Shown piece after piece: positions 6,283 through 22,684 of a stretch of 22,729 nucleotides of DNA. The position numbers were made by a program, and so were the translations under genes. Each line of letters starts with the position of its first letter. Within the stretch, counting starts at the first letter, position 1. Below the pieces are notes generated by a model. That model worked only from the letters and a program-made list of their open reading frames with translations. It was not told the origin of the DNA and did not search any database. The DNA comes from a virus: the IMG/VR virus record IMGVR_UViG_3300007735_000497, positions 1 through 22,729 of that record, one strand, 5' to 3'.

Positions 6283-7628
6283 CCGCCAGCGTGGCCGAGC
6301 GCCTGGCAAGCCTGCCGCGCGACGAGCGGAATGCCATCGTTGATCAGCTCACCCCCGCCGAACAGGAAGCCTTGCTTTATGACTGGCGCGAGTTCCTCGC
6401 CCGCCCCGAACAGATCACACCCGAAGGCGACTGGGACATCTGGCTGATCATGTCAGGCCGCGGCTGGGGCAAGACGAGGACCGGCGCCGAGTGGGTCAAG
6501 GAAGCCGTAAGGAAGGGCTACAAGCGCATCGCCCTGATCGGCGAGACAGCAGCGGACGCGCGCGACGTCATGGTCGAGGGCGTGACCGGCATCCTGTCTG
6601 TCTATCCCGAAACCGAGCGTCCGCTGTACGAGCCCAGCAAGCGCCGCCTGACATGGCCCAACGGGGCGATTGCCACCACGTTCAACGCCACCGAGCCTGA
6701 CCAGCTGCGCGGCCCGCAGTTTGACCTGGCGTGGTGCGATGAGTTGGCCAAGTGGCGCTACGCCCGCGAGACGTGGGACCAGTTGAGCTTTGGCCTGCGC
6801 CTTGGCGATCATCCCCGCGTACTGGTCACGACGACGCCAAGGCCTGTCGAACTGGTCAAGGCGATCGTGGCCGGGTCAGAGGGCAAGGTTCACATTACCC
6901 GCGGCGCGACGATGGACAATCGCTCCAATCTGGCGGGCAAGTTTCTTGAGAAGATCCAATTAAGGTATGAGGGAACCCGCCTCGGCCGGCAGGAACTGCG
7001 CGGGGAAATCCTCGGCGATATCCCGAATGCGCTATGGACCTATGGCCAGATCGAAGCCAGCCGCGTCAGGCAATGCGATCCGCTGGATCGTGTCGTGGTG
7101 TCGGTTGACCCTGCGATATCCAACACCGAGGACAGCGACGAACACGGGATTATTGTTGCTGGCGTCCATCACAAGTCACAGGAAGCTTACGTTCTTGAGG
7201 ACGGCTCAATGCAGGGCAGTCCGATGGAATGGGCGCGGCGGGCAATCAACCTTTACGATACGCACAAGGCGGACGCGATCGTGATAGAGGTCAACCAGGG
7301 CGGAGACATGGTGGCGCAGACCCTGCGCAGCGTGCGGAATACGGTGAAGATTAAGGAAGTCCGGGCCACGCGCGGCAAGCATGTCCGGGCCGAGCCGATC
7401 GCCAGCATGTACGAGCAGGGCCGGGTCCACCACGTCGGCAGCTTCCCGGCGCTTGAAACGCAAATGACGCAGATGACGACCTTTGGTTACGAAGGTGCGG
7501 GCAGCCCTGACCGTGTCGATGCGCTGGTCTGGGCGATGACGGACCTGTTCCCAAGCATGGTGGGCAAGACAGCCAATCAACGCACCCCAGTTAAATTGGT
7601 ACCCATCGTGACACCGATGGCGAGATAG
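6279..7628 (+). CDS. terminase large subunit (DNA-packaging ATPase and nuclease)
   Basis: This 449-residue packaging motor protein has two domains. The ATPase domain has Walker A GRGWGKT (60-66), Walker B FDLAWCDE (148-155) with catalytic Glu155, and a coupling motif TTTPRP (184-189). The RNase H-like nuclease domain (about 270-425) has metal-binding acidic residues in VDPAIS (D277), VIEVN (E337) and DRVDALVWA (D411, D414). It would cut concatemeric DNA and drive it into the prohead through the portal encoded next door. The length is slightly below P22 gp2 (499). All key residues are present, so it should be active. The mode of packaging (headful or fixed ends) cannot be read from the protein by eye. 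Confidence 0.95.
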   Translation: MTASVAERLASLPRDERNAIVDQLTPAEQEALLYDWREFLARPEQITPEGDWDIWLIMSGRGWGKTRTGAEWVKEAVRKGYKRIALIGETAADARDVMVEGVTGILSVYPETERPLYEPSKRRLTWPNGAIATTFNATEPDQLRGPQFDLAWCDELAKWRYARETWDQLSFGLRLGDHPRVLVTTTPRPVELVKAIVAGSEGKVHITRGATMDNRSNLAGKFLEKIQLRYEGTRLGRQELRGEILGDIPNALWTYGQIEASRVRQCDPLDRVVVSVDPAISNTEDSDEHGIIVAGVHHKSQEAYVLEDGSMQGSPMEWARRAINLYDTHKADAIVIEVNQGGDMVAQTLRSVRNTVKIKEVRATRGKHVRAEPIASMYEQGRVHHVGSFPALETQMTQMTTFGYEGAGSPDRVDALVWAMTDLFPSMVGKTANQRTPVKLVPIVTPMAR

Positions 7629-7643
7629 TTTACGGCAGACGCT

Positions 7644-10031
7644 ATGGCGCGAGAAACCAGAGAGCAGCGGCTGCAACGCGTCCACACCGAGGCGCTGACC
7701 GAGTTCGACGCTATCCAGTCCACAATGCGTGACGAGCGGTTCCAGTGCCTCGAAGATCGCCGGTTCTACAGCATCGCTGGCGCGCAGTGGGAGGGTAACC
7801 TCAGCGAACAGTACGCGAACAGACCAAGGTTCGAGGTGAACAAGGTCGCGCTGTCCGTGATGCGGATCATATCCGAATACCGCAACAATCGCGTCACGGT
7901 TGATTTTGTCCCCAAAGACGGGAGCACAAATCTCAAGCTGGCCGACACCTGCGATGAGCTTTACCGGGCTGATGAGCAGGACAGTTCCGCAGACGAGGCC
8001 TACGACAACGCATTCGAGGAAGCAGTCGGCGGCGGGTTCGGGGCGTGGCGTCTCTCCAACCAGTATGAGGACGAGGGCGACCCCGAAAACGAGCAGCAGC
8101 GCATCGTGTTCCAGCCCATCTTCGACGCTGACACGTCCGTGTTCTTTGACCTGAACGCCAAGCGCCAGGACAAGAAGGACGCGCAGAAATGCTACGTCCT
8201 GTCGGCCATGACGATCCAAGCGTACAAGGACCGTTTCGACGACGACCCGCAGACGTGGCCCAAGGTTGTGCAGTTCGTCCAGTTCGACTGGTCAACGCCA
8301 GACGTGGTCTACATTGCAGAATACTACGTCAAGGAACAGGTAACCGAGACGCTGCGTATCTTCCGCTCGCTGGATGGCGAAGAGACAAAGTATTCGGAAG
8401 CCGACTTTGAAGACGATCCCGACCTTGAGCGGATGTTGCTTGCAACCGGCAGCGTCGAGGTGCGCGAGCGCAAGATTAAGCGCCAGCGGGTCCACAAGTA
8501 CCTGCTAAGCGGCGGCAAGGTGCTGGAAGATTACGGGCTGATAGCCGGGTCTGAAATCCCGATCATCCCGGTTTATGGGAAGAGATGGTTCGTTGACAAC
8601 ATCGAGCGTTGCCAGGGCCACGTCAGGCTGGCCAAGGATGCGCAGCGCCTGAAAAACATGCAGCTGACTAAGCTGGGCGAGATATCTGCTTACAGCACGG
8701 TGCAGAAGCCAATCTTCACCCCCGAGCAGGTTGCCGGCCACGAACTCGCTTGGGCGGACGACAACGTCAAACGCTATCCGTACCTGCTGGTTAACCCCGT
8801 CACCAATGCGGACGGCGGCGAGCAACCTATGGGCGCACTGGATTACACGCGGGCGCCGGAGATACCGCCTGCGATGGCTGCGCTGCTTCAGATCACCGAG
8901 CAGGACATGCAGGAGATCCTCGGCAACCAGCAGCAGGCCGAGATCATGCAGCCCAACATGTCAGGCAAAGCCGTGGAGCTGATCCAGAACAAGCTTGACA
9001 TGCAGACGTTCATCTACCTCAGCAACTTCGGGAAGGCGGTGAAGCGCTGCGGCGAGGTCTGGCTGTCGATGGCGCGGGACATTTACGTCGAGCCGAACCG
9101 CAAGATGAAAGGGATCCAGACCACCGGAGAGCCGCGCACTGTCGAACTGGCCCGGCCGATCGTCAACAAAGAGACCGGCGCGATCGAGACGGAGAACGAT
9201 ATCGCGGAAGCCAAGTTCGACGTTGCCGTTGATGTCGGGCCAAGCACGACCAGCCGCCGCGCTGCTGTCGTTCGCGCCATCACCGGCATGATGCAGATCA
9301 CGCAGGACCCGCAGACGCTGTCCATTCTCGGCAGCATGGCCATGATGAACATGGAAGGCGAAGGCCTTTCCGAGATGCAGCAATACTTCCGCAAGCAATT
9401 GCTGAAGCTGGGCGTGCTTGAGCCGAACGAGGAAGAGGCCGCGGCGATGCAGGCCGAGCTTGAGGCCATGCAGAGCCAACCCGACCCGCAGGCGCAGCTT
9501 GCCGAGAGCCTGGCAATGGAAGCCCGCGCCAAGGCGGCCAAGGCAGAAGCCGACACCGAGGCAGCGCTTGCCACGGCGGAAAAGACGCGAGCGCAAACGA
9601 TCGAGATCCTGACGGGCGTAGGTGTGGAGGGTGATGCGGCTATGGCGCAAGCCGCGCCAATGCCAACACAAGCGCCATCTGTTCCGGACGAGCGCACGCA
9701 GCTAGAGCTTGAGGCACTGCGCCTCGACAACATGGAGCGCCAGGAAAAGATCACGGCGGCGCGAGGCAAGGTCGAGCAGATCAACGCCGATCGAGAGGCC
9801 AACAACACAATGGCGCAGGCTGCTTCGGCAATGCAGCAGGCAGTGACCGGCCTGAGCCAGAGCGTGGCAGTTATCGGGGACGCGGTTGGGCAGATGAGCC
9901 AAGCCGTAGGCCAGTTTGCGGCAGTGACATCCGAGAACTCCGACAAGGCCATCAAGGCGCTGTCCCGCCCGAAACGCGTGGTGCGCGAAAAGGGCCGGAT
10001 ATCCAGAATTGAAACTGAAGGTGCAGACTAA
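7644..10031 (+). CDS. portal protein, P22 type
   Basis: This 795-residue protein follows the terminase after a 15-base gap. It resembles the P22-like portal family: an N-terminal region with a DRRFYSIAGAQWEG segment and an EVNKVALSVMRIISEYRNNR helix, a long alpha/beta body, and a helix-rich C-terminal part from about residue 590 with long Ala/Glu/Gln-rich coiled-coil stretches, ending in RPKRVVREKGRISRIE. Portals of this family form a dodecameric ring at one capsid vertex that passes DNA and docks the tail. P22 gp1 has 725 residues and a C-terminal helical barrel inside the head; the extra length here lies in that C-terminal region. No clear Shine-Dalgarno precedes the ATG. Confidence 0.92.
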   Translation: MARETREQRLQRVHTEALTEFDAIQSTMRDERFQCLEDRRFYSIAGAQWEGNLSEQYANRPRFEVNKVALSVMRIISEYRNNRVTVDFVPKDGSTNLKLADTCDELYRADEQDSSADEAYDNAFEEAVGGGFGAWRLSNQYEDEGDPENEQQRIVFQPIFDADTSVFFDLNAKRQDKKDAQKCYVLSAMTIQAYKDRFDDDPQTWPKVVQFVQFDWSTPDVVYIAEYYVKEQVTETLRIFRSLDGEETKYSEADFEDDPDLERMLLATGSVEVRERKIKRQRVHKYLLSGGKVLEDYGLIAGSEIPIIPVYGKRWFVDNIERCQGHVRLAKDAQRLKNMQLTKLGEISAYSTVQKPIFTPEQVAGHELAWADDNVKRYPYLLVNPVTNADGGEQPMGALDYTRAPEIPPAMAALLQITEQDMQEILGNQQQAEIMQPNMSGKAVELIQNKLDMQTFIYLSNFGKAVKRCGEVWLSMARDIYVEPNRKMKGIQTTGEPRTVELARPIVNKETGAIETENDIAEAKFDVAVDVGPSTTSRRAAVVRAITGMMQITQDPQTLSILGSMAMMNMEGEGLSEMQQYFRKQLLKLGVLEPNEEEAAAMQAELEAMQSQPDPQAQLAESLAMEARAKAAKAEADTEAALATAEKTRAQTIEILTGVGVEGDAAMAQAAPMPTQAPSVPDERTQLELEALRLDNMERQEKITAARGKVEQINADREANNTMAQAASAMQQAVTGLSQSVAVIGDAVGQMSQAVGQFAAVTSENSDKAIKALSRPKRVVREKGRISRIETEGAD

Positions 10032-10468
10032 TGCCCGCAGGTAACTGGATCGTCTTTAACAGGGCCAAGCTGAAGCTGGCGAACGGCACGTTCGACCTTG
10101 ACACGCAGACGTTCAAGATGGCGCTGACCACGTCTGCGCAAGCTTTGGATGCGACATTCGTCGGCACGTCCACGGACTGCCGATACGCGGACCTTACGGA
10201 GGAGGTCGTCGGAACCGGATATGTTGCGGGTGGCAAGACGCTGACCGCCACATGGACGCAATCGACGGGCACCATTACATTTGATGTGGATGACCAGGCT
10301 TGGACTGCCAGCACGATCACGGCGAAATACGCGGTGATCTACCTGACCACCGGCAACGCTGACCTGTTGTGCGTGGTGGATCTGGACACGGGCGGCGGGT
10401 CAGTCAGCACGACGGCCGGAACTCTCACGATAACCATCAACGCCTCTGGCGTGTTCACGCTGGCATAA
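10031..10468 (+). CDS. small beta-rich virion protein, unknown role
   Basis: This 145-residue protein starts with a TAATG overlap on the portal stop. The first half (TFKMALTTSAQALDATFVGT, then YADLTEEVVGTGYVAGGKTL) matches a pattern common to small phage structural proteins, in which a short strand KMALT is followed by DLT.E and GY..GG. The second half is Thr/Gly-rich with alternating strands. It has no Cys cluster, signal peptide or membrane segment. The gene lies between portal and scaffold, where P22 has none, so it is probably an extra head or tail decoration. That role is inferred from position and composition. Confidence 0.7.
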   Translation: MPAGNWIVFNRAKLKLANGTFDLDTQTFKMALTTSAQALDATFVGTSTDCRYADLTEEVVGTGYVAGGKTLTATWTQSTGTITFDVDDQAWTASTITAKYAVIYLTTGNADLLCVVDLDTGGGSVSTTAGTLTITINASGVFTLA

Positions 10469-10478
10469 GGGACAGACC

Positions 10479-11042
10479 ATGCAACAGGGATATATCGCGA
10501 CCCTCCTTAACTCGATTGCGGACGGTACGGCGCTTACCAACACGACAACGGCAACGTCTATCCTGCCGGTTATTGCCAAGCCGACGCTTCCGGCTAACTA
10601 CCTGTTCGCGGGCAAAATGTTCAGGGTCACGGCGGGCGGCAGGATCAGCACGGTGGTAACGACGCCTGGAACGCTGACGCTTGATCTGCGCCTGGGCTCC
10701 GTCAACGTGTTCTCGTCGGGAGCGATGTCCTTAAACACGACCGCGCAAACCAACGTCGGCTGGATTTATGAGGCGTTTTTCACAGTGAGAGCCGTCGGCG
10801 CAACCACGACTGCCAACGTGCTGGGCCAGGGATCATGGCAGAGCCATGCAGTCATCGGCTCTCCCGCGCCAACTGCAGGCGGCGCCGGCGAGCATGTCCT
10901 GCCATACAACGCAGCGCCCGCAGTCGGCACGGGCTTTGACAGCACGTCGGCGCAGTTGGTGGACCTGTTCGCGACGTGGTCAGTGGCCAGCGCGTCGAAC
11001 TCGATTACTTGTCACCAGTTCTTTATTGAGGACCTCAACTAG
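10479..11042 (+). CDS. hypothetical structural protein, Thr/Ala-rich beta type
   Basis: This 187-residue protein has AGGGAC about 7 nt before its ATG. It is rich in Thr, Ala, Val and Gly with the alternating hydrophobic pattern of beta sandwiches (GTLTLDLRLGSVNVFSSGAM). It has few charges and no recognisable catalytic motif. It belongs to the block of four small genes between portal and scaffold. I see it as a virion surface component by analogy with similar beta-rich proteins in phage late operons, without a family name. Confidence 0.65.
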   Translation: MQQGYIATLLNSIADGTALTNTTTATSILPVIAKPTLPANYLFAGKMFRVTAGGRISTVVTTPGTLTLDLRLGSVNVFSSGAMSLNTTAQTNVGWIYEAFFTVRAVGATTTANVLGQGSWQSHAVIGSPAPTAGGAGEHVLPYNAAPAVGTGFDSTSAQLVDLFATWSVASASNSITCHQFFIEDLN

Positions 11043-11045
11043 GTC

Positions 11046-11495
11046 ATGCCTCGCATCGGATCACTCACGCAACAACCGCGTCAGATGACGCGCTTCGGCG
11101 CGAACATGTGTCCGATGACGAACACTGGATTGACCAAGCTGGCCGCGAACACTGGGGCGGAATACGTGGAGCTAGGCCCCCGCCGCGTTCCAATGGGCGG
11201 CATCGGGCATTCGCTGTTCTCTACGCCGCTGCTTAAAGCCCCGACATTCACTGGCACATTCTCGCTGTCTGGCGTGACGCGGGATAGTTCCGGGGCAGCG
11301 CTTGACAACTGCGTGGTGGACCTGTTCCTGAACTCGGAGGACACGCTGGTTGCGACAACCACGTCGGACGGATCGGGAAACTACAGGTTTATCGTAAACG
11401 GCAATTCGCAGACCTATTTCGTCAGGGCGTACAAGGCCGGATCGCCTGACGTTGCGGGGACGAGCGTGAACACGCTGACGGCTGTCTATCCGTGA
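11046..11495 (+). CDS. virion protein with carboxypeptidase-regulatory-like (Ig-like) domain
   Basis: This 149-residue protein has a basic, Met-rich start (residues 1-60). The C-terminal part (about 68-148) reads as a small seven-strand beta sandwich: FSLSGVTRDSSGAALDNCVV, then DLF, then TTTSDGSGNYRF, then a final strand FVRAYKAG. The run G-V-T-x-D-x-x-G-x-x-L followed by T-S-D-G-S-G-N-Y is the hallmark of carboxypeptidase-regulatory/Ig-like folds, which phages often place on exposed virion proteins, where they may bind cell-surface sugars. The stop overlaps the next start as GTGA. A surface decoration is the best guess. Confidence 0.7.
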   Translation: MPRIGSLTQQPRQMTRFGANMCPMTNTGLTKLAANTGAEYVELGPRRVPMGGIGHSLFSTPLLKAPTFTGTFSLSGVTRDSSGAALDNCVVDLFLNSEDTLVATTTSDGSGNYRFIVNGNSQTYFVRAYKAGSPDVAGTSVNTLTAVYP

Positions 11496-12286
11496 GTGAC
11501 GTTCGGCTATTTACGGTTCCGAGCGATGCCAACCAGAACGACGTCCGGCTTTATCCTGGCGTTGTAAACACCGCGCTGACGCCTGATCGTGGCCTGCTGA
11601 CGCTGACCGGCTTTGCGCCGGCGGTTGTCGCTAGCGCCCTGATGGCGCTGGGTGTCGGGTCGCTGACGCTGACCGGGTACGCGCCAACGGTCACAACAGC
11701 CGCAACGCCGGTAAATGTGACGGTGACGCCTGGCGCTGGCGCGCTCGCCCTGCAGGGCTACGCCCCGACAGTCACGGCTCAAGTCAGTGTGTCCCTCACG
11801 ACAGGCCTGGGCGCGCTGGCCCTGACCGGATATGCCCCTACGGTAAGCGGAGACGTGCCGCAGATTGTCGGCGGCGGCGGGCCGGGCGGAAACGCGGCGC
11901 AATACAAGCGGCCGCGTCCAAGTCCTGCCCATGAATGGGAGCTTGAGCTTGCGCAGGCCGCGCGGCTGGCGTCGATCGCCAAGGAACTGGCGGCGTCCGA
12001 TCGCCCGCAGGCGCAGCGGATTGCGAAGAAGCTGAAGGATTACACCGGCGAGATCAGGCAGGTGGAAAGCCTGCGCCGGGAACTGGCCAAGCTCGAGGCG
12101 GTGCAGCGGGAAAAGCAGTTCCGCAGCGAGATAGAACGCCAGAAAAGCCAGGATTTGCAGGACGCGGCGCGGGAACTGGATGCCATACTGGCAGACGATG
12201 AAGACGCACTGGACCTGTTGATGGCAAATTATGAGGCGGAAGCAGATTTGCTGCTGGCCGTTTTTGGGTTAGGACGATTGATTTAG
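11492..12286 (+). CDS. repeat protein: four GYAPTV repeats plus C-terminal coiled coil
   Basis: The GTG at 11492 overlaps the upstream stop (GTGA). The 264-residue product has two parts. Residues 30-120 hold four copies of a repeat ending in L(T/Q)G(Y/F)AP(T/A)V, at 38-45, 60-67, 87-94 and 111-118, each preceded by a Gly-rich turn and separated by Val/Thr-rich strands. After a Gly-rich linker (127-134), residues 145-262 are almost wholly helical and highly charged (ELAKLEAVQREKQFRSEIER), as in a coiled coil. This suggests a fibrous or linker virion protein with a beta N-terminus and an oligomerising tail. No named family is assigned. It lies just before the scaffold gene. Confidence 0.7.
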   Translation: MSDVRLFTVPSDANQNDVRLYPGVVNTALTPDRGLLTLTGFAPAVVASALMALGVGSLTLTGYAPTVTTAATPVNVTVTPGAGALALQGYAPTVTAQVSVSLTTGLGALALTGYAPTVSGDVPQIVGGGGPGGNAAQYKRPRPSPAHEWELELAQAARLASIAKELAASDRPQAQRIAKKLKDYTGEIRQVESLRRELAKLEAVQREKQFRSEIERQKSQDLQDAARELDAILADDEDALDLLMANYEAEADLLLAVFGLGRLI

Positions 12287-12335
12287 CCGGTACACCAGTC
12301 AGCCGGATCAAGTGACTGAGCAAGGAAGCGCTAAG

Positions 12336-13190
12336 ATGCTAGACCCGAACGAGATCGAAACCGAGCTGCTTGACGGAGGCGAGACGCCACCGGAGCCCGC
12401 TGCGGAGGGCGAGACGCCCCCAGCGGAAGAGGCCGAGAACGAGATTGTTGTCAGCATCGGCAACGAAGAGCCCCAGCCTGATCCGGTCGCTGAACAAACT
12501 CAGCAAGCACCGGAATGGGTGAAGGAACTTCGCAAGCAGAACCGCGAATACCAGAAGCGGATCCGTCAGTTAGAACGCAACACGCAGGCCCCGGCCGCGC
12601 AGGGTGAGACAACTACCACCGCCCCGCCAAAGAAGCCAACGCTTGCCGATGTGGACTACGACACGGGCGCTTACGAGGCAAAGCTTGACGACTGGTACAA
12701 GGCGAAAGCCGAGTACGATCGCAAGCAGAGCGAACGTCAACGCGAACAGGACGCGGTCAAAGGTGCGTGGGAGGCCAAAATCAATGGCTATAACACCGCC
12801 AAGGCCGAGCTGAAGGCGCGTGACTTCGACGATGCGGAGGCTGTGATTGCTGACACTTTGTCAGTGACGCAGCAGGGCATCATCCTTGACGGCGCGGAGA
12901 AGCCTGCACTGTTGATCTATGCGCTCGGAAAGAACCCAAAGAAAGCCGCCGAACTGGCGGCGATACAGAACCCGGTCGCGTTTGCTGCGGCAATTGGACG
13001 ATTGGAGGCAAGTTTGAAAGTCACATCACGCAAGCCGTCAGCGGCGCCAGAACAGATACCGAGCGGCAACGCTCCGAAGTCTGGCTCCGTCGACAACACA
13101 TTGGAACGACTGCGCGAGGAAGCCGGCAAAACGGGCGATTTCACCAAGGTGATGGCCTACAAGCGCCAGGCTGCCGCGAAGCGCGGTTAA
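12336..13190 (+). CDS. scaffolding protein (probable)
   Basis: This 284-residue protein is acidic at the N-terminus (many Glu and Pro) and then helical and highly charged, with a coiled-coil segment (WVKELRKQNREYQKRIRQLE, about 65-85) and a basic C-terminus ending in YKRQAAAKRG. It lies directly before the coat gene, the position of scaffold gene 8 in P22 (303 residues), where the protein guides coat assembly and then leaves. The basic C-terminal helix matches the coat-binding end of P22 scaffold in kind. I chose ATG 12336 because AAGGAAG lies 8 nt before it; GTG 12312 would add 8 residues. Sequence similarity in this class is low, so the call rests on position and composition. Confidence 0.75.
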   Translation: MLDPNEIETELLDGGETPPEPAAEGETPPAEEAENEIVVSIGNEEPQPDPVAEQTQQAPEWVKELRKQNREYQKRIRQLERNTQAPAAQGETTTTAPPKKPTLADVDYDTGAYEAKLDDWYKAKAEYDRKQSERQREQDAVKGAWEAKINGYNTAKAELKARDFDDAEAVIADTLSVTQQGIILDGAEKPALLIYALGKNPKKAAELAAIQNPVAFAAAIGRLEASLKVTSRKPSAAPEQIPSGNAPKSGSVDNTLERLREEAGKTGDFTKVMAYKRQAAAKRG

Positions 13191-13205
13191 CAAGGACAAG
13201 GAACA

Positions 13206-14480
13206 ATGCCCAACGGATTTAGTAAGGAAGAACGCGTAGCGTTCGAGAACATCCTCGAAGGTTTTCAGGATGCTCTAGTGCTGTCCCGCAACGTCGCTGT
13301 GTTCAACACGGACCAGACGACAATGGAACGCACGAATAACGTCATGTGGCGCCCGCAGCCGTACATCGCGACGAGCTACGCCGGCACCGACATGACCACG
13401 AACTTCGACGACTACACGCAGCTGTCCGTCCCCGCGACGATCGGCTTCCAGCGTTCGGTCCCGTTCGTGCTGACGGCAACCGAACTGCGTGACGCCCTGC
13501 AGGAAGGCCGCCTCGGCGATGCCGCCAAGCAGAAGCTCGCCAGCGACATCAACGTGAGCGTGATGAACGTTGCAGCCAACCAGGGTACGCTTTTCGTCAA
13601 GCGTTCCGCGGCTGCGGCTGGCTTCGATGACGTCGCACTTTGTGAGGCGATCATGAACGAGCGCGGCGTCCAGATGGACAACCGCTACCTTGCTCTGTCT
13701 ACCCGTGACTATAACGGCATGGCGTCCAACCTTGCCGTCTCGACCCGCAGCTTCGGCAACTCGATTTCCGATGAAGCGCTGCGTCGCGGGTTCGTCGGGC
13801 AGGTGGCGTCTTTCGAGACTTACAAGCTTGATTACGCCAACCGCAAGACGGCTGCGGCCGGCGGCGCTGGCCTGACCATCAGCACGCTTGCGGCTGCTGG
13901 TAACTACTGGGTGCCGAAGGCAACCTCTGTTGCCACGACCGGCGAAACGTCGAACGTGGATAACCGCTATCAGACGGTCACCATCAGCTCCACAACCAAC
14001 GTGGTTGCTGGCGATGCGTTCACGATTGCAAACGTCAACTCGTGCCACCTGATCACGAAGCAGGACACCGGCCAGCCGATGACGTTCCGCGTTATCTCGG
14101 TTCCGTCTGCGACGACGCTGGTAATTTCTCCGCCGATCATCTCAAACCAGGGCGCGTCGGACGCTGAAACGCAGTACCAGAACTGCGTTGTGACGGCGAC
14201 CTCCGCCACGGCGGCGATCACCTTCCTGAACACCGTTACCGCGTTCCAGAACCCGTTCTGGTTCAAGGACAGCATTGAAATCCTGCCGGGTCGCTATGCG
14301 GTCCCGACGGATGCCGGCGCGGCGGTGATGCGTGCGGCAACCGATCAGGGCATCGAACTGGTCATGCAGAAACAATACGACATCAACACGATGCGGACCA
14401 AGTATCGTCTCGACACGCTCTATGGGGTTGTCAACAAACAGCCCATGATGAGCGGCCTCATCATGTTCAGCCAGACCTAA
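13206..14480 (+). CDS. major coat protein, P22 gp5-like
   Basis: The 424 residues compare with 430 for P22 coat. Recognisable stretches include an N-terminal helix region, the P22-type NNVMW element, and the central VDNRYQTVTISSTTNVVAGD with the following VISPP strand, which matches the inserted beta domain (I domain) of this HK97-fold family. Near the end NPFWFKDSIEILPGRYAVP corresponds to the P22 segment before the last strands. The protein would form the icosahedral shell on the scaffold encoded just upstream. AAGGA lies 8 nt before the ATG. In P22 the I domain stabilises the subunit. The gene is intact, with no sign of frameshift. Confidence 0.93.
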   Translation: MPNGFSKEERVAFENILEGFQDALVLSRNVAVFNTDQTTMERTNNVMWRPQPYIATSYAGTDMTTNFDDYTQLSVPATIGFQRSVPFVLTATELRDALQEGRLGDAAKQKLASDINVSVMNVAANQGTLFVKRSAAAAGFDDVALCEAIMNERGVQMDNRYLALSTRDYNGMASNLAVSTRSFGNSISDEALRRGFVGQVASFETYKLDYANRKTAAAGGAGLTISTLAAAGNYWVPKATSVATTGETSNVDNRYQTVTISSTTNVVAGDAFTIANVNSCHLITKQDTGQPMTFRVISVPSATTLVISPPIISNQGASDAETQYQNCVVTATSATAAITFLNTVTAFQNPFWFKDSIEILPGRYAVPTDAGAAVMRAATDQGIELVMQKQYDINTMRTKYRLDTLYGVVNKQPMMSGLIMFSQT

Positions 14481-14495
14481 CGGAGAAATCGCACA

Positions 14496-15140
14496 ATGAG
14501 TAACTTTCTCACCGGCGGCGGCCGTGTCTCCGTCACTCTCACCGCAACGCAGAAAATCGCGGTTGCTTCGCAAGGCGCCGTCCAGGTCTATCGCACGTCT
14601 GGTTTTGCCAACTATCCGGACGCCTCGACCCTGATCGGCACCGTCATCAACGGTCAGACCGTGTTCGGCACCTTCACGGGTGGCGCCACGATTATCATCG
14701 ATGCGGGCGGCGGCCTGTCGGCGCAGTACGAAGTCGGCACTGACCCGAACGTCAAGCAGTGGCGCACCGATAACGGTGTCCAGGGCGACGTAACGGCAAA
14801 AACTGTTGCGGTCACACTGACATCGGCTGAACTGCTGACGAACCTGATTACCGGCACTCACACCGCCGGCGCGACGCAGGCTTACACCCTGCCGACCGGC
14901 ACCCTTCTGGACGCGGCAACCTCGTTTGACGTGAACGAATACTTCGACTGGTCGCTGATCAACCTGTCAGCGGCAGCTCTGGACACGATCACGCTGACGG
15001 CGGGTGCAACGCACACCATCGTGGGCAACCCGATCGTGCAGAGCGCCAACGCCTCGACGGGCGGCATCTACGGTAACTCCGCACGCTGGAGGACCCGCAA
15101 GACTGCGGCCAACACGTTCGTGACGTACAGGCTCGCGTAG
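14496..15140 (+). CDS. capsid decoration-like structural protein
   Basis: This 214-residue beta-rich protein is placed directly after the coat gene, with GGAGA 10 nt before the ATG. The N-terminal half is a Thr/Val/Gly-rich domain. The C-terminal half (from about 125) is a module that I recall in many phage head proteins: [12 protein letters not shown], then [11 protein letters not shown], then a final [20 protein letters not shown]-like strand pair. It has no Cys. Its position before the strong terminator suggests it is made in amounts similar to coat, which fits a protein that covers the capsid surface. The decoration role is inferred. Confidence 0.65.
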
Positions 15141-21543: not shown

Positions 21544-21947
21544 TGTTTGAAGACTTCGCCAAGCGTTTAGGCGAGTTGGGCGGCCTGCCGGAAATCGAGC
21601 TAACGCCGCGGCAGAACAAGCTTAACCGCGAGATGACGATTGAGGAGTGGGGCTACGGCCCGGAAGCGCCCAGCCTGGCGAAGGGGTCGAACAAGCCGTT
21701 CTATTCGGGCTTGGCGAGGGCGTGGGGCATCGAGGAAGCCGAAGCCCGGCGGCGGATGTGTGGAAACTGCGAATACTGGAAGGCCTGCGAGGACACGCAG
21801 GAAATGCTCGAAGCCATCCCCGTGACGCCGTACGACGAAGCGGGTGGCGCGGCGCGGGGCTATTGCGAGGAACACGAGTTCGCCTGCGCGGCGTCCCGTG
21901 TTTGCAAGAGCTGGGAAGAAGTCGAGATGGAAGAGGGGTATGATTGA
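21543..21947 (+). CDS. Cys-rich protein, probable metal-binding, unknown function
   Basis: This 134-residue protein has two regions. The first 70 residues are charged (RQNKLNREMTIEEWGYGPEA, then SGLARAWGI). The second holds cysteines at MCGNC, YWKAC, GYC, and a last pair in FACAASRVC, arranged as in zinc or Fe-S binding sites. A pattern CGNCxYW....GYCxxHxFxCxAxRxCxSWE is recurrent among phage proteins of this type in my memory, but I know no function. It sits between virion genes, so a virion or assembly role is possible. Both ends overlap neighbours by TGATG. Confidence 0.65.
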   Translation: MFEDFAKRLGELGGLPEIELTPRQNKLNREMTIEEWGYGPEAPSLAKGSNKPFYSGLARAWGIEEAEARRRMCGNCEYWKACEDTQEMLEAIPVTPYDEAGGAARGYCEEHEFACAASRVCKSWEEVEMEEGYD

Positions 21948-22684
21948 TGTGGCCTCTCATTGCGACAATCGGATCTGCCATCATCGGCGGCGCTATGTCC
22001 TCCAAGGCGCAGAAGTCTGCCGCTAAAACAGCAGCCGGGGCGCAGACAGCGGCCACTGATGCCAGCATGGCCGAGCAGCGCCGGCAGTTCGACAGCATCC
22101 AGGCGCTGTTCCGGCCCTACGTAGAGGCGGGCGGCGGCGCTCTGGCGCGTCAGCTTGACCTGGTCGGCAACAACGGTCCCGAAGCCCAGCAGCGAGCCAT
22201 TCAGGCGATCGAGATGGGGCCAGAGTTCGCCGCCATGACCCGGCAGGGCGAAGAGGCCATCTTGCAGAACGCGGCTGCAACCGGCGGGCTGCGCGGCGGG
22301 AACGTCCAGAGCGCGCTGGCGAAGTTCCGGCCAGAGGTGCTGTCCAGCCTTCTCAACCAGCAATACCAGCGCCTCGGCGGCCTGACGCAGCTGGGGCAGG
22401 CGTCGGCGGGAAATCAGGCGGCGGGTGCGCAGACGTTTGCAAACAACATGTCGCAACTCTTCACGCAGCGCGGCGAGGCGCTGGCCGGTAGCGCGCTGGC
22501 GCGAGGCCAGGCCAACGCGAACATGTGGGGCAACATCGCGGGCAGCGTCGGCTTTGCCGCGGGGCGGGGGATGTTTGGTGGGATGGGCGCAGGCGCTCCG
22601 GGTACGGACATCGGCGGCGGACCTGGCGTTGGCATGGCATCTACCGGCGGCAATCGCGTTGGCGGGCTTGGAGGGCTCTTCTGA
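21947..22684 (+). CDS. DNA ejection protein, P22 gp7-like
   Basis: This 245-residue protein (P22 gp7 has 229) starts at ATG 21947; a TTG at 21944 is possible, but GAAGAGGGG ends 8 nt before the ATG. The N-terminus MWPLIATIGSAIIGGAMSSK is hydrophobic with small residues, as in ejection proteins. The middle is Ala/Gln-rich helix (DSIQALFRPYVEAGGGALAR, EAILQNAAATGGLRG, LSSLLNQQYQRLGG), matching the pattern of phage DNA-transfer proteins. The last 45 residues are Gly-rich. In P22, gp7 leaves the capsid with DNA and helps form the conduit across the cell envelope. Its position after the needle gene agrees. Confidence 0.8.
   Translation: MWPLIATIGSAIIGGAMSSKAQKSAAKTAAGAQTAATDASMAEQRRQFDSIQALFRPYVEAGGGALARQLDLVGNNGPEAQQRAIQAIEMGPEFAAMTRQGEEAILQNAAATGGLRGGNVQSALAKFRPEVLSSLLNQQYQRLGGLTQLGQASAGNQAAGAQTFANNMSQLFTQRGEALAGSALARGQANANMWGNIAGSVGFAAGRGMFGGMGAGAPGTDIGGGPGVGMASTGGNRVGGLGGLF

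Follow-up and report, generated by a model that had tools for sequence, protein, structure and literature searches.

A variable gene cassette between the portal and scaffold genes of P22-type phages and its possible link to a portal extension

The window analysed here, a virus record of 22,729 bases (IMG/VR record IMGVR_UViG_3300007735_000497, positions 1 to 22,729), contains a P22-type head operon in which four genes, here called gA, gB, gC and gD, lie between the portal and scaffold genes. The block takes in the final ~115 codons of the portal gene as well, which encode a heptad-like helix followed by the basic tail RPKRVVREKGRISRIETE. Among relatives, this portal extension accompanies the C-terminal domain of gD (gD-C), and the genes between the two vary. 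We see an even chance that this is one form of an accessory virion cassette, mobile and modular, that gD anchors to the portal tail; the sequence comparisons suggest that the portal holds the last protein of the set and that phages trade the rest. The extension and gD-C would bind each other, with gD as the anchor, and gA, gB, gC and the N-terminal part of gD would be adhesin- or fibre-type cargo built onto gD. Whichever cargo set a phage owns would thus be assembled at the portal vertex via gD.

The P22-type relatives were collected from IMG/VR with gD and the coat protein as queries, which gave 124 loci; adding four phage loci and the copy in the window itself made a comparison set of 129 (L numbers denote individual loci). 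Portal, scaffold and coat were all scored in 62 of them. The scaffold gene starts no more than 55 nucleotides (nt) after the portal gene in 44 of the 62, and the direct succession of portal, scaffold and coat, which the preliminary description had taken from P22, is indeed the usual arrangement. Fourteen loci, on 12 contigs, carry a block of 2.3-3.9 kilobases (kb) that always has a gD-type gene as its final gene, and the other four hold different portal-scaffold inserts. Portals 5' of a gD-type block are ~115 residues longer than the others, their last residues forming a conserved basic tail, whereas portals that lack such a block terminate well before the extension. Unrelated single genes occupy the portal-scaffold slot at L087:3370-4854, L127:8251-8733, L128:1600-2742 and L053:4868-5311, next to portals lacking the extension, which means that the slot accepts other inserts too.

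Further searches used a gD-C profile (A1) and an extension profile (A2), each of which selects for its own query and not for the partner. They led to 214 non-contained loci scored with hidden Markov models (HMMs), of which the 77 without a portal match were left out. The remaining 137 comprise 60 loci with both the extension and gD-C, 47 with neither, 30 with the extension and no separate gD-C gene, and none with gD-C alone. In 29 of the 30 extension-only loci the contig ends 31-3309 bases past the portal and no scaffold is seen; gD-C genes, where present, begin 1.0-3.1 kb downstream of the portal, and these 29 loci cannot be judged because their contigs end too early. The window itself belongs to the loci with both parts. 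At L171:3-1772 the portal is fused in frame with the gD core and all cargo is missing, while in L170, which is near-identical, 2.6 kb of cargo separates the two parts. This fusion may be a natural deletion or a misassembly, and it was counted neither for nor against the pairing.

A natural pair of present and absent states is provided by L091 and L097 (the latter also represented by L101). Their flanks share 92.8% identity as far as L091:4697 and 96.1% from L091:8936 onwards, and the 4,238 bases unique to L091 comprise the extension of the portal, two genes for cargo and all of gD but its last codons. The same break is found in L116 and L117, with flanks 88.6% and 83.7% identical. The L097 portal ends in GVK-stop at the position that matches the GVR-stop end of gD in L091, and GGC is present at both break points. 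The empty state of L097 would be explained if the segment between the portal and the end of gD had been deleted cleanly and in frame. The pair shows that the whole unit is dispensable; alone it is no proof of binding, because one event removed both ends.

Between the extension and gD-C we found about 30 protein clusters in 22 arrangements, a few of the clusters being noise of the simple open reading frame (ORF) caller and some arrangements being shortened by contig ends. Cargo is thus swapped freely, unlike the two ends; in the window we count gA to gC and the N-terminal portion of gD as such cargo. Pairwise protein distances were compared over 27 distinct loci out of the 36 with all parts. 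Distances in the extension correlate with those in gD-C at r = 0.67 and with those in the extension's own portal body at r = 0.35. The partial correlation given portal body, scaffold and coat is 0.55 for extension and gD-C, a value reached by 0 of 999 permutations, and -0.18 for extension and portal body. When the comparison is confined to pairs without a common cargo cluster (233 of 351), the coefficients are 0.59 and 0.03, respectively, and among the 15 loci less than 80% identical in gD-C the extension still correlates with gD-C (r = 0.50, Mantel p 0.0055). Thus, even where the cargo has been exchanged, the extension follows gD-C more closely than the rest of its own polypeptide, and it is this behaviour that calls for a link between the two.

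Similar tails occur outside the lineage of the window. With gA and gB as queries we found contigs whose portals and coats are of other kinds: the portals of L247, L294, L253, L255 and L018 match phrog_156 and that of L300 matches phrog_12082, those of L250 and L258 match phrog_1216 best, and the coats tested belong to phrog_283 (L018), phrog_334 (L295) and phrog_9953 (L302). The gene order is portal, cargo, repeat protein and then, where the contig reaches that far, scaffold-type and coat genes. The portals end in basic tails such as PKRVVRDPQTGRVVGTE, PKTIIRGKDGRALGVE and APRMIKRDDGGRVTGVE, and the final cassette gene ends in an acidic run with leucines, for example EDEDEAILLLMAA. In the window's gD the acidic-leucine motif (DDEDALDLLM) is internal to gD-C and not at the very end. 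Eighty-four gA/gB loci were examined. Removing 15 from the lineage of the window and 3 that had no matching ORF leaves 66, of which 21 offered no upstream gene to judge. The 45 judged loci divide into 27 with both tails, 16 with neither, one with only the portal tail (L296, where no further gene is seen) and one with only the acidic tail (L295, where the portal reading frame is truncated). Reduced to distinct rows, the exploratory counts are 17 with both, 15 with neither and 1 and 1 discordant (Fisher 2e-7); an acidic-LLL end is present in 17 of 18 distinct rows with a portal tail versus 1 of 16 untailed ones.

These observations raise the doubtful prospect that distant lineages share a portal docking code, in which a basic portal tail would recruit an acidic/leucine-tailed or helical anchor with a swappable adhesin or enzyme load, to be stored on the barrel inside the head and released before the DNA. 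Neither tail nor cassette was present in the eight cultured or named relatives of the L027-type portal examined among 290 matches, and the four named relatives of the L300-type portal examined among 10 matches lacked the basic tail. A derivation of the docking tail from a tail-tip protein was considered and rejected, as the tail is absent from the C-termini of the tail-tip and minor tail proteins examined in Seuss, Pan4 and Murphy. The final cassette genes of L016, L247, L255, L300 and others have conserved ends of the form ...ILLLAA or ...LLLMAA. Such ...LLLAA ends resemble an ssrA-type degradation tag.

The features of the operon are given in Table 1.

Table 1. Head operon of the window and neighbouring features (aa, amino acids; E-values for family matches)
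Feature	Positions	Strand	Remarks
Portal, P22 type, carrying the extension	7644..10031	+	PF16510 (P22_portal) 4.1e-153; phrog_156 6.5e-139
Portal C-terminal extension, ~residues 667-795, heptad-like helix	9642..10028	+	In all scored gD-C loci, absent from the 47 loci without gD-C
Basic tail RPKRVVREKGRISRIETEGAD	9966-10028	+	Last 63 bases of the extension
gA, cargo gene 1, 145 aa	10031..10468	+	phrog_644 family, 1.1e-24; predicted beta sandwich, pLDDT 82
gB, cargo gene 2, 187 aa	10479..11042	+	Relatives in phages with other portals
gC, cargo gene 3, 149 aa	11046..11495	+	Weak carboxypeptidase-regulatory (Ig-like) domain, residues 73-138; PF13620 9.8e-6
gD, final cassette gene, 264 aa, GTG start	11492..12286	+	Proposed anchor
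gD N-terminal repeats, LTLTGYAPTV type, residues ~26-126	about 11567-11869	+	
gD-C, predicted helical C-terminal domain	about 11920-12283	+	Part of the gene that immediately precedes the scaffold in all divergent blocks read
Scaffold, downstream cassette border	12312..13190	+	phrog_648 5.3e-54
Coat, P22 type	13206..14480	+	PF11651 (P22_CoatProtein) 9.6e-88
gp7-type ejection gene	21944-22684		phrog_598

The four genes occupy exactly the interval 10031-12286 between portal and scaffold that the preliminary description had assigned to them, and they account for the 2,280 bases that separate these two genes. The block exceeds those limits, and the C-terminal extension of the portal belongs to it. 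The same description called the genes tightly overlapped, which holds for portal and gA (1 nt, TAATG) and for gC and gD (4 nt, GTGA) and not for gA-gB, gB-gC and gD-scaffold, which are separated by 10, 3 and 25 nt. Ratios of nonsynonymous to synonymous substitution rates against five relatives are 0.07-0.12 for gA, 0.06-0.17 for gB, 0.08-0.13 for gC and 0.20-0.31 for gD; since the overall range of 0.06-0.31 indicates conservation under purifying selection, gA to gD are real genes. No sigma-70-like promoter was found within 7500-14600, which is consistent with co-transcription with the head genes and does not show it. At L169:2759-4747 the scaffold and coat HMMs match one ORF of 663 residues, and the genes look fused there.

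The cassette proteins have few assigned relatives. NCBIfam holds no family for gA, gB, gC or gD, and gB has none in Pfam or PHROG either, with weak or chance matches only in a sequence search of the Protein Data Bank (PDB). For the extension and for gD-C there was no convincing match in Pfam, NCBIfam or the PDB; the PDB sequence searches returned weak matches, mostly coiled-coil or chance. Neither the extension nor gD nor gD-C, from the window or from L086, has a relative among the 50,697 phage records of INPHARED, and of the pattern-matching stretches in GTDB genome contigs (24 for gD-C and 91 for the extension) none was confirmed. The characterization of the block as beta-rich, Ig-like or repetitive stands for the predicted fold of gA, for the match of gC to CarboxypepD_reg (PF13620), which lies below Pfam's own cut-off, and for the repeats of gD. 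It fails for the second half of gD, which is helical in a low-confidence AlphaFold model built from 36 homologues (predicted local distance difference test, pLDDT, 53; predicted template-modelling score, pTM, 0.28). The fourth gene contributes the repeats to that picture, and its predicted helical domain, which the preliminary description missed, is the one constant of the block. Two loci elsewhere have proteins resembling its N-terminus. On the distant P22-type contig L019 (8132-10492) such a repeat protein is encoded 5' of the terminase gene, together with a portal without a basic tail; in Mycobacterium phage Murphy (L319:7969-9429) a minor tail protein with short Pro/Gly repeats is encoded directly 5' of a gA relative, a similar pairing at a siphophage tail locus.

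Residues 1-143 of gA match positions 1-141 of 174 in phrog_644, a family of unknown function. AlphaFold predicts gA confidently as a beta sandwich (pTM 0.80), and structural alignment with VIA-align gave Z-scores of 10.9 and 10.7 over 123-124 residues to chains of ~1000 residues in the T4-type baseplate entries 5iv5 and 9f4a, probably gp7. Lower scores were obtained for a chain of 136 residues in 8jou, the fibre/fibre-adaptor entry of phage GP4 (Z 7.1, 113 residues) and for an HFTV1 tail chain (Z 5.1), with unrelated rows at or below 2.9. Foldseek returned no PDB match for gA at E <= 0.001, and a PDB sequence search gave none. Among the BFVD matches of gA are a phage 7-7-1 structural protein and, at lower strength, several tail-collar fibres. 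The model thus shares its fold with the baseplate and fibre-adaptor beta sandwich well above background; a shared fold shows no function. Cargo in other loci includes a GDSL lipase (L091, Pfam 3.5e-14), YadA head repeats (L221, 3.8e-12), an F5/8-C domain just below the cut-off (L073, 3.2e-6), and, in L067, a methyltransferase (8.2e-7) with a sub-threshold glycosyltransferase-like protein. Cargo family F7 corresponds to phrog_3758, labelled virion structural protein. Three cargo proteins compared with PDB sequences gave one chance match (E 0.21).

The suggestion that the block is a head-surface decoration or fibre set survives in its second half: a fibre or adsorption set is reasonable given the fold of gA and the lectin, YadA and lipase cargo, and nothing found points to decoration of the capsid lattice. 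Comparison of gA to gD with Pfam, PHROG, NCBIfam and the PDB, and of gA alone by fold, revealed no clear relation to known decoration proteins or head fibres. It is possible, though unlikely, that gA to gD are tail-fibre or collar proteins outside the particle and that the extension serves otherwise or hitch-hikes. The baseplate- and fibre-like fold of gA, its tail-collar matches in BFVD and the cargo domains are in line with such an external set, and in cultured siphophages gA- and F7-type genes lie 3' of tail-tip or minor tail genes. The P22-type phage L003 lacks the block; it comes from a spring and encodes a gA relative together with an F27-type protein at the tail-hub locus, between gp4 and gp10 (L003:17606-18930). 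It weighs against an external set that the extension tracks gD-C better than its own portal body. Replacement of the gp4-gp10 fibre locus by the cassette was likewise not borne out, as this slot is not significantly shorter in phages with the block (median 1269 bases, n = 14) than in those without (3035 bases, n = 17; p 0.095), and it is kept as a lead only. The methyltransferase and glycosyltransferase-like cargo of L067 would also fit a set of assembly helpers or morons acting in the infected cell and absent from the virion. We consider this very unlikely, as most labelled cargo is of virion-surface type, F7 is labelled a virion structural protein and the block lies inside the head operon.

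Where docking to the portal would take place is a separate matter. Known ejection proteins are described as helical or membrane-inserting, whereas gA is predicted to be a beta sandwich and the cargo looks extracellular. No PHROG match links gA to gD with the gp7-, gp16- or gp20-type ejection families of P22, and the window already has a gp7-type gene. These findings make it improbable, but still worth weighing, that the gene products are kept on the portal barrel within the head and exit before the DNA in the manner of ejection proteins. The C-terminal barrel of the P22 portal points into the head, and its distal part has been proposed to bind ejection proteins, according to the portions of PMC4992974 consulted; in crAss001, the portal retains the cargo protein gp45 within the capsid, at the portal wing, according to those of PMC10172136. 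Both phages offer precedents for internal proteins bound to a portal. If the extension of the window's portal continues the P22 barrel, docking would occur inside the head or during procapsid assembly and not on the head surface. Portal topology thus places the docking site internally, and the cargo is of a type normally found outside. For the portal-anchored cassette we lean towards real docking and keep both locations, inside and outside the head, in play.

Several points weigh against the portal-anchored cassette. Its two ends are separated by 1-3 kb and could be acquired or lost jointly, as in L091 and L097, so that their co-occurrence is no proof of contact, and the counts of loci are not independent, some loci overlapping or being near-identical (L067, L133 and L209, for example, are the same contig). 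The neighbouring scaffold likewise correlates with gD-C (r = 0.71 over the 27 loci, and again 0.50 in the 15-locus set). The gD model is poor, gD-C was not detected outside the window lineage, and the tail patterns were written after seeing examples, with L018 and L317 set by eye. A docking site within the head also fits poorly with cargo that resembles adhesins. Some of these points would be expected if the extension and the cassette had been acquired together once and co-inherited without contact, given that they are adjacent and were lost in one step in L097. We rate such linkage rather unlikely: the correlation between extension and gD-C persists despite many cargo exchanges, and a similar pairing of portal tail and last gene recurs with other portal and coat families. 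What the comparisons show directly is how the genes are arranged, that the two ends co-occur and evolve in a correlated way, that cargo is exchanged and that, at one site, the entire unit is present or absent; for the anchored cassette, physical binding, presence in the virion and a role in adsorption or delivery are what we infer from the sequences.

The system deserves attention as a hypervariable set of virion-type proteins that is linked, via an apparent two-part docking signature, to the portal, which is among the most conserved parts of the head. The signature recurs with several portal and coat families. If the anchored cassette is real, the signature would allow such cassettes to be recognised by sequence in phages not yet cultured, and it would become testable whether podophage portals hold cargo besides the classical ejection proteins.

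Among known systems, the P22-type head module (P22, Sf6, HK620, CUS-3) is the closest, as the window has homologous portal, scaffold and coat genes in the same order. In the P22-type records MW202867, MW202475 and PfAn1 the scaffold follows directly after the portal, whereas the window has a longer portal and four intervening genes; the block is absent from these P22-like records, as stated earlier for P22, and from most relatives. The P22 ejection proteins are comparable in that the passages available from PMC4992974 propose their binding to the distal part of the portal barrel within the head; they differ in sharing no family with gA to gD. The likeness to crAss001 gp45 lies in a non-tail protein on the portal inside the capsid; gp45 binds the portal wing, and the available passages of PMC10172136 describe neither a swappable set nor a portal tail. 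The small siphophage proteins of phrog_644 and phrog_3758 (Murphy gp30, Seuss gp33, Pan4_24) share families with gA and with the F7 cargo of sister cassettes, respectively, but those of Murphy, Seuss and Pan4 are encoded after tail-tip or minor tail genes, whereas the cassette genes follow the portal. The T4-type baseplate chains and the GP4 entry 8jou align with gA in predicted fold without a sequence match. Decoration proteins and head fibres (Moo19 gp28 and B2 gp45, in the passages available from PMC11654681) are similar as accessory, often Ig-like virion proteins, but the genetic link of the cassette is to the portal and not to the coat. The portal-cassette pair was not described in the literature found, of which titles and the starts of abstracts were covered and most subscription journals lay outside coverage, and our analysis turned up no virion proteomics of a cassette-bearing phage. 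Accessory virion cassettes are already known; within the reach of our searches, a cassette linked to the portal through a pair of tails that recurs is new.

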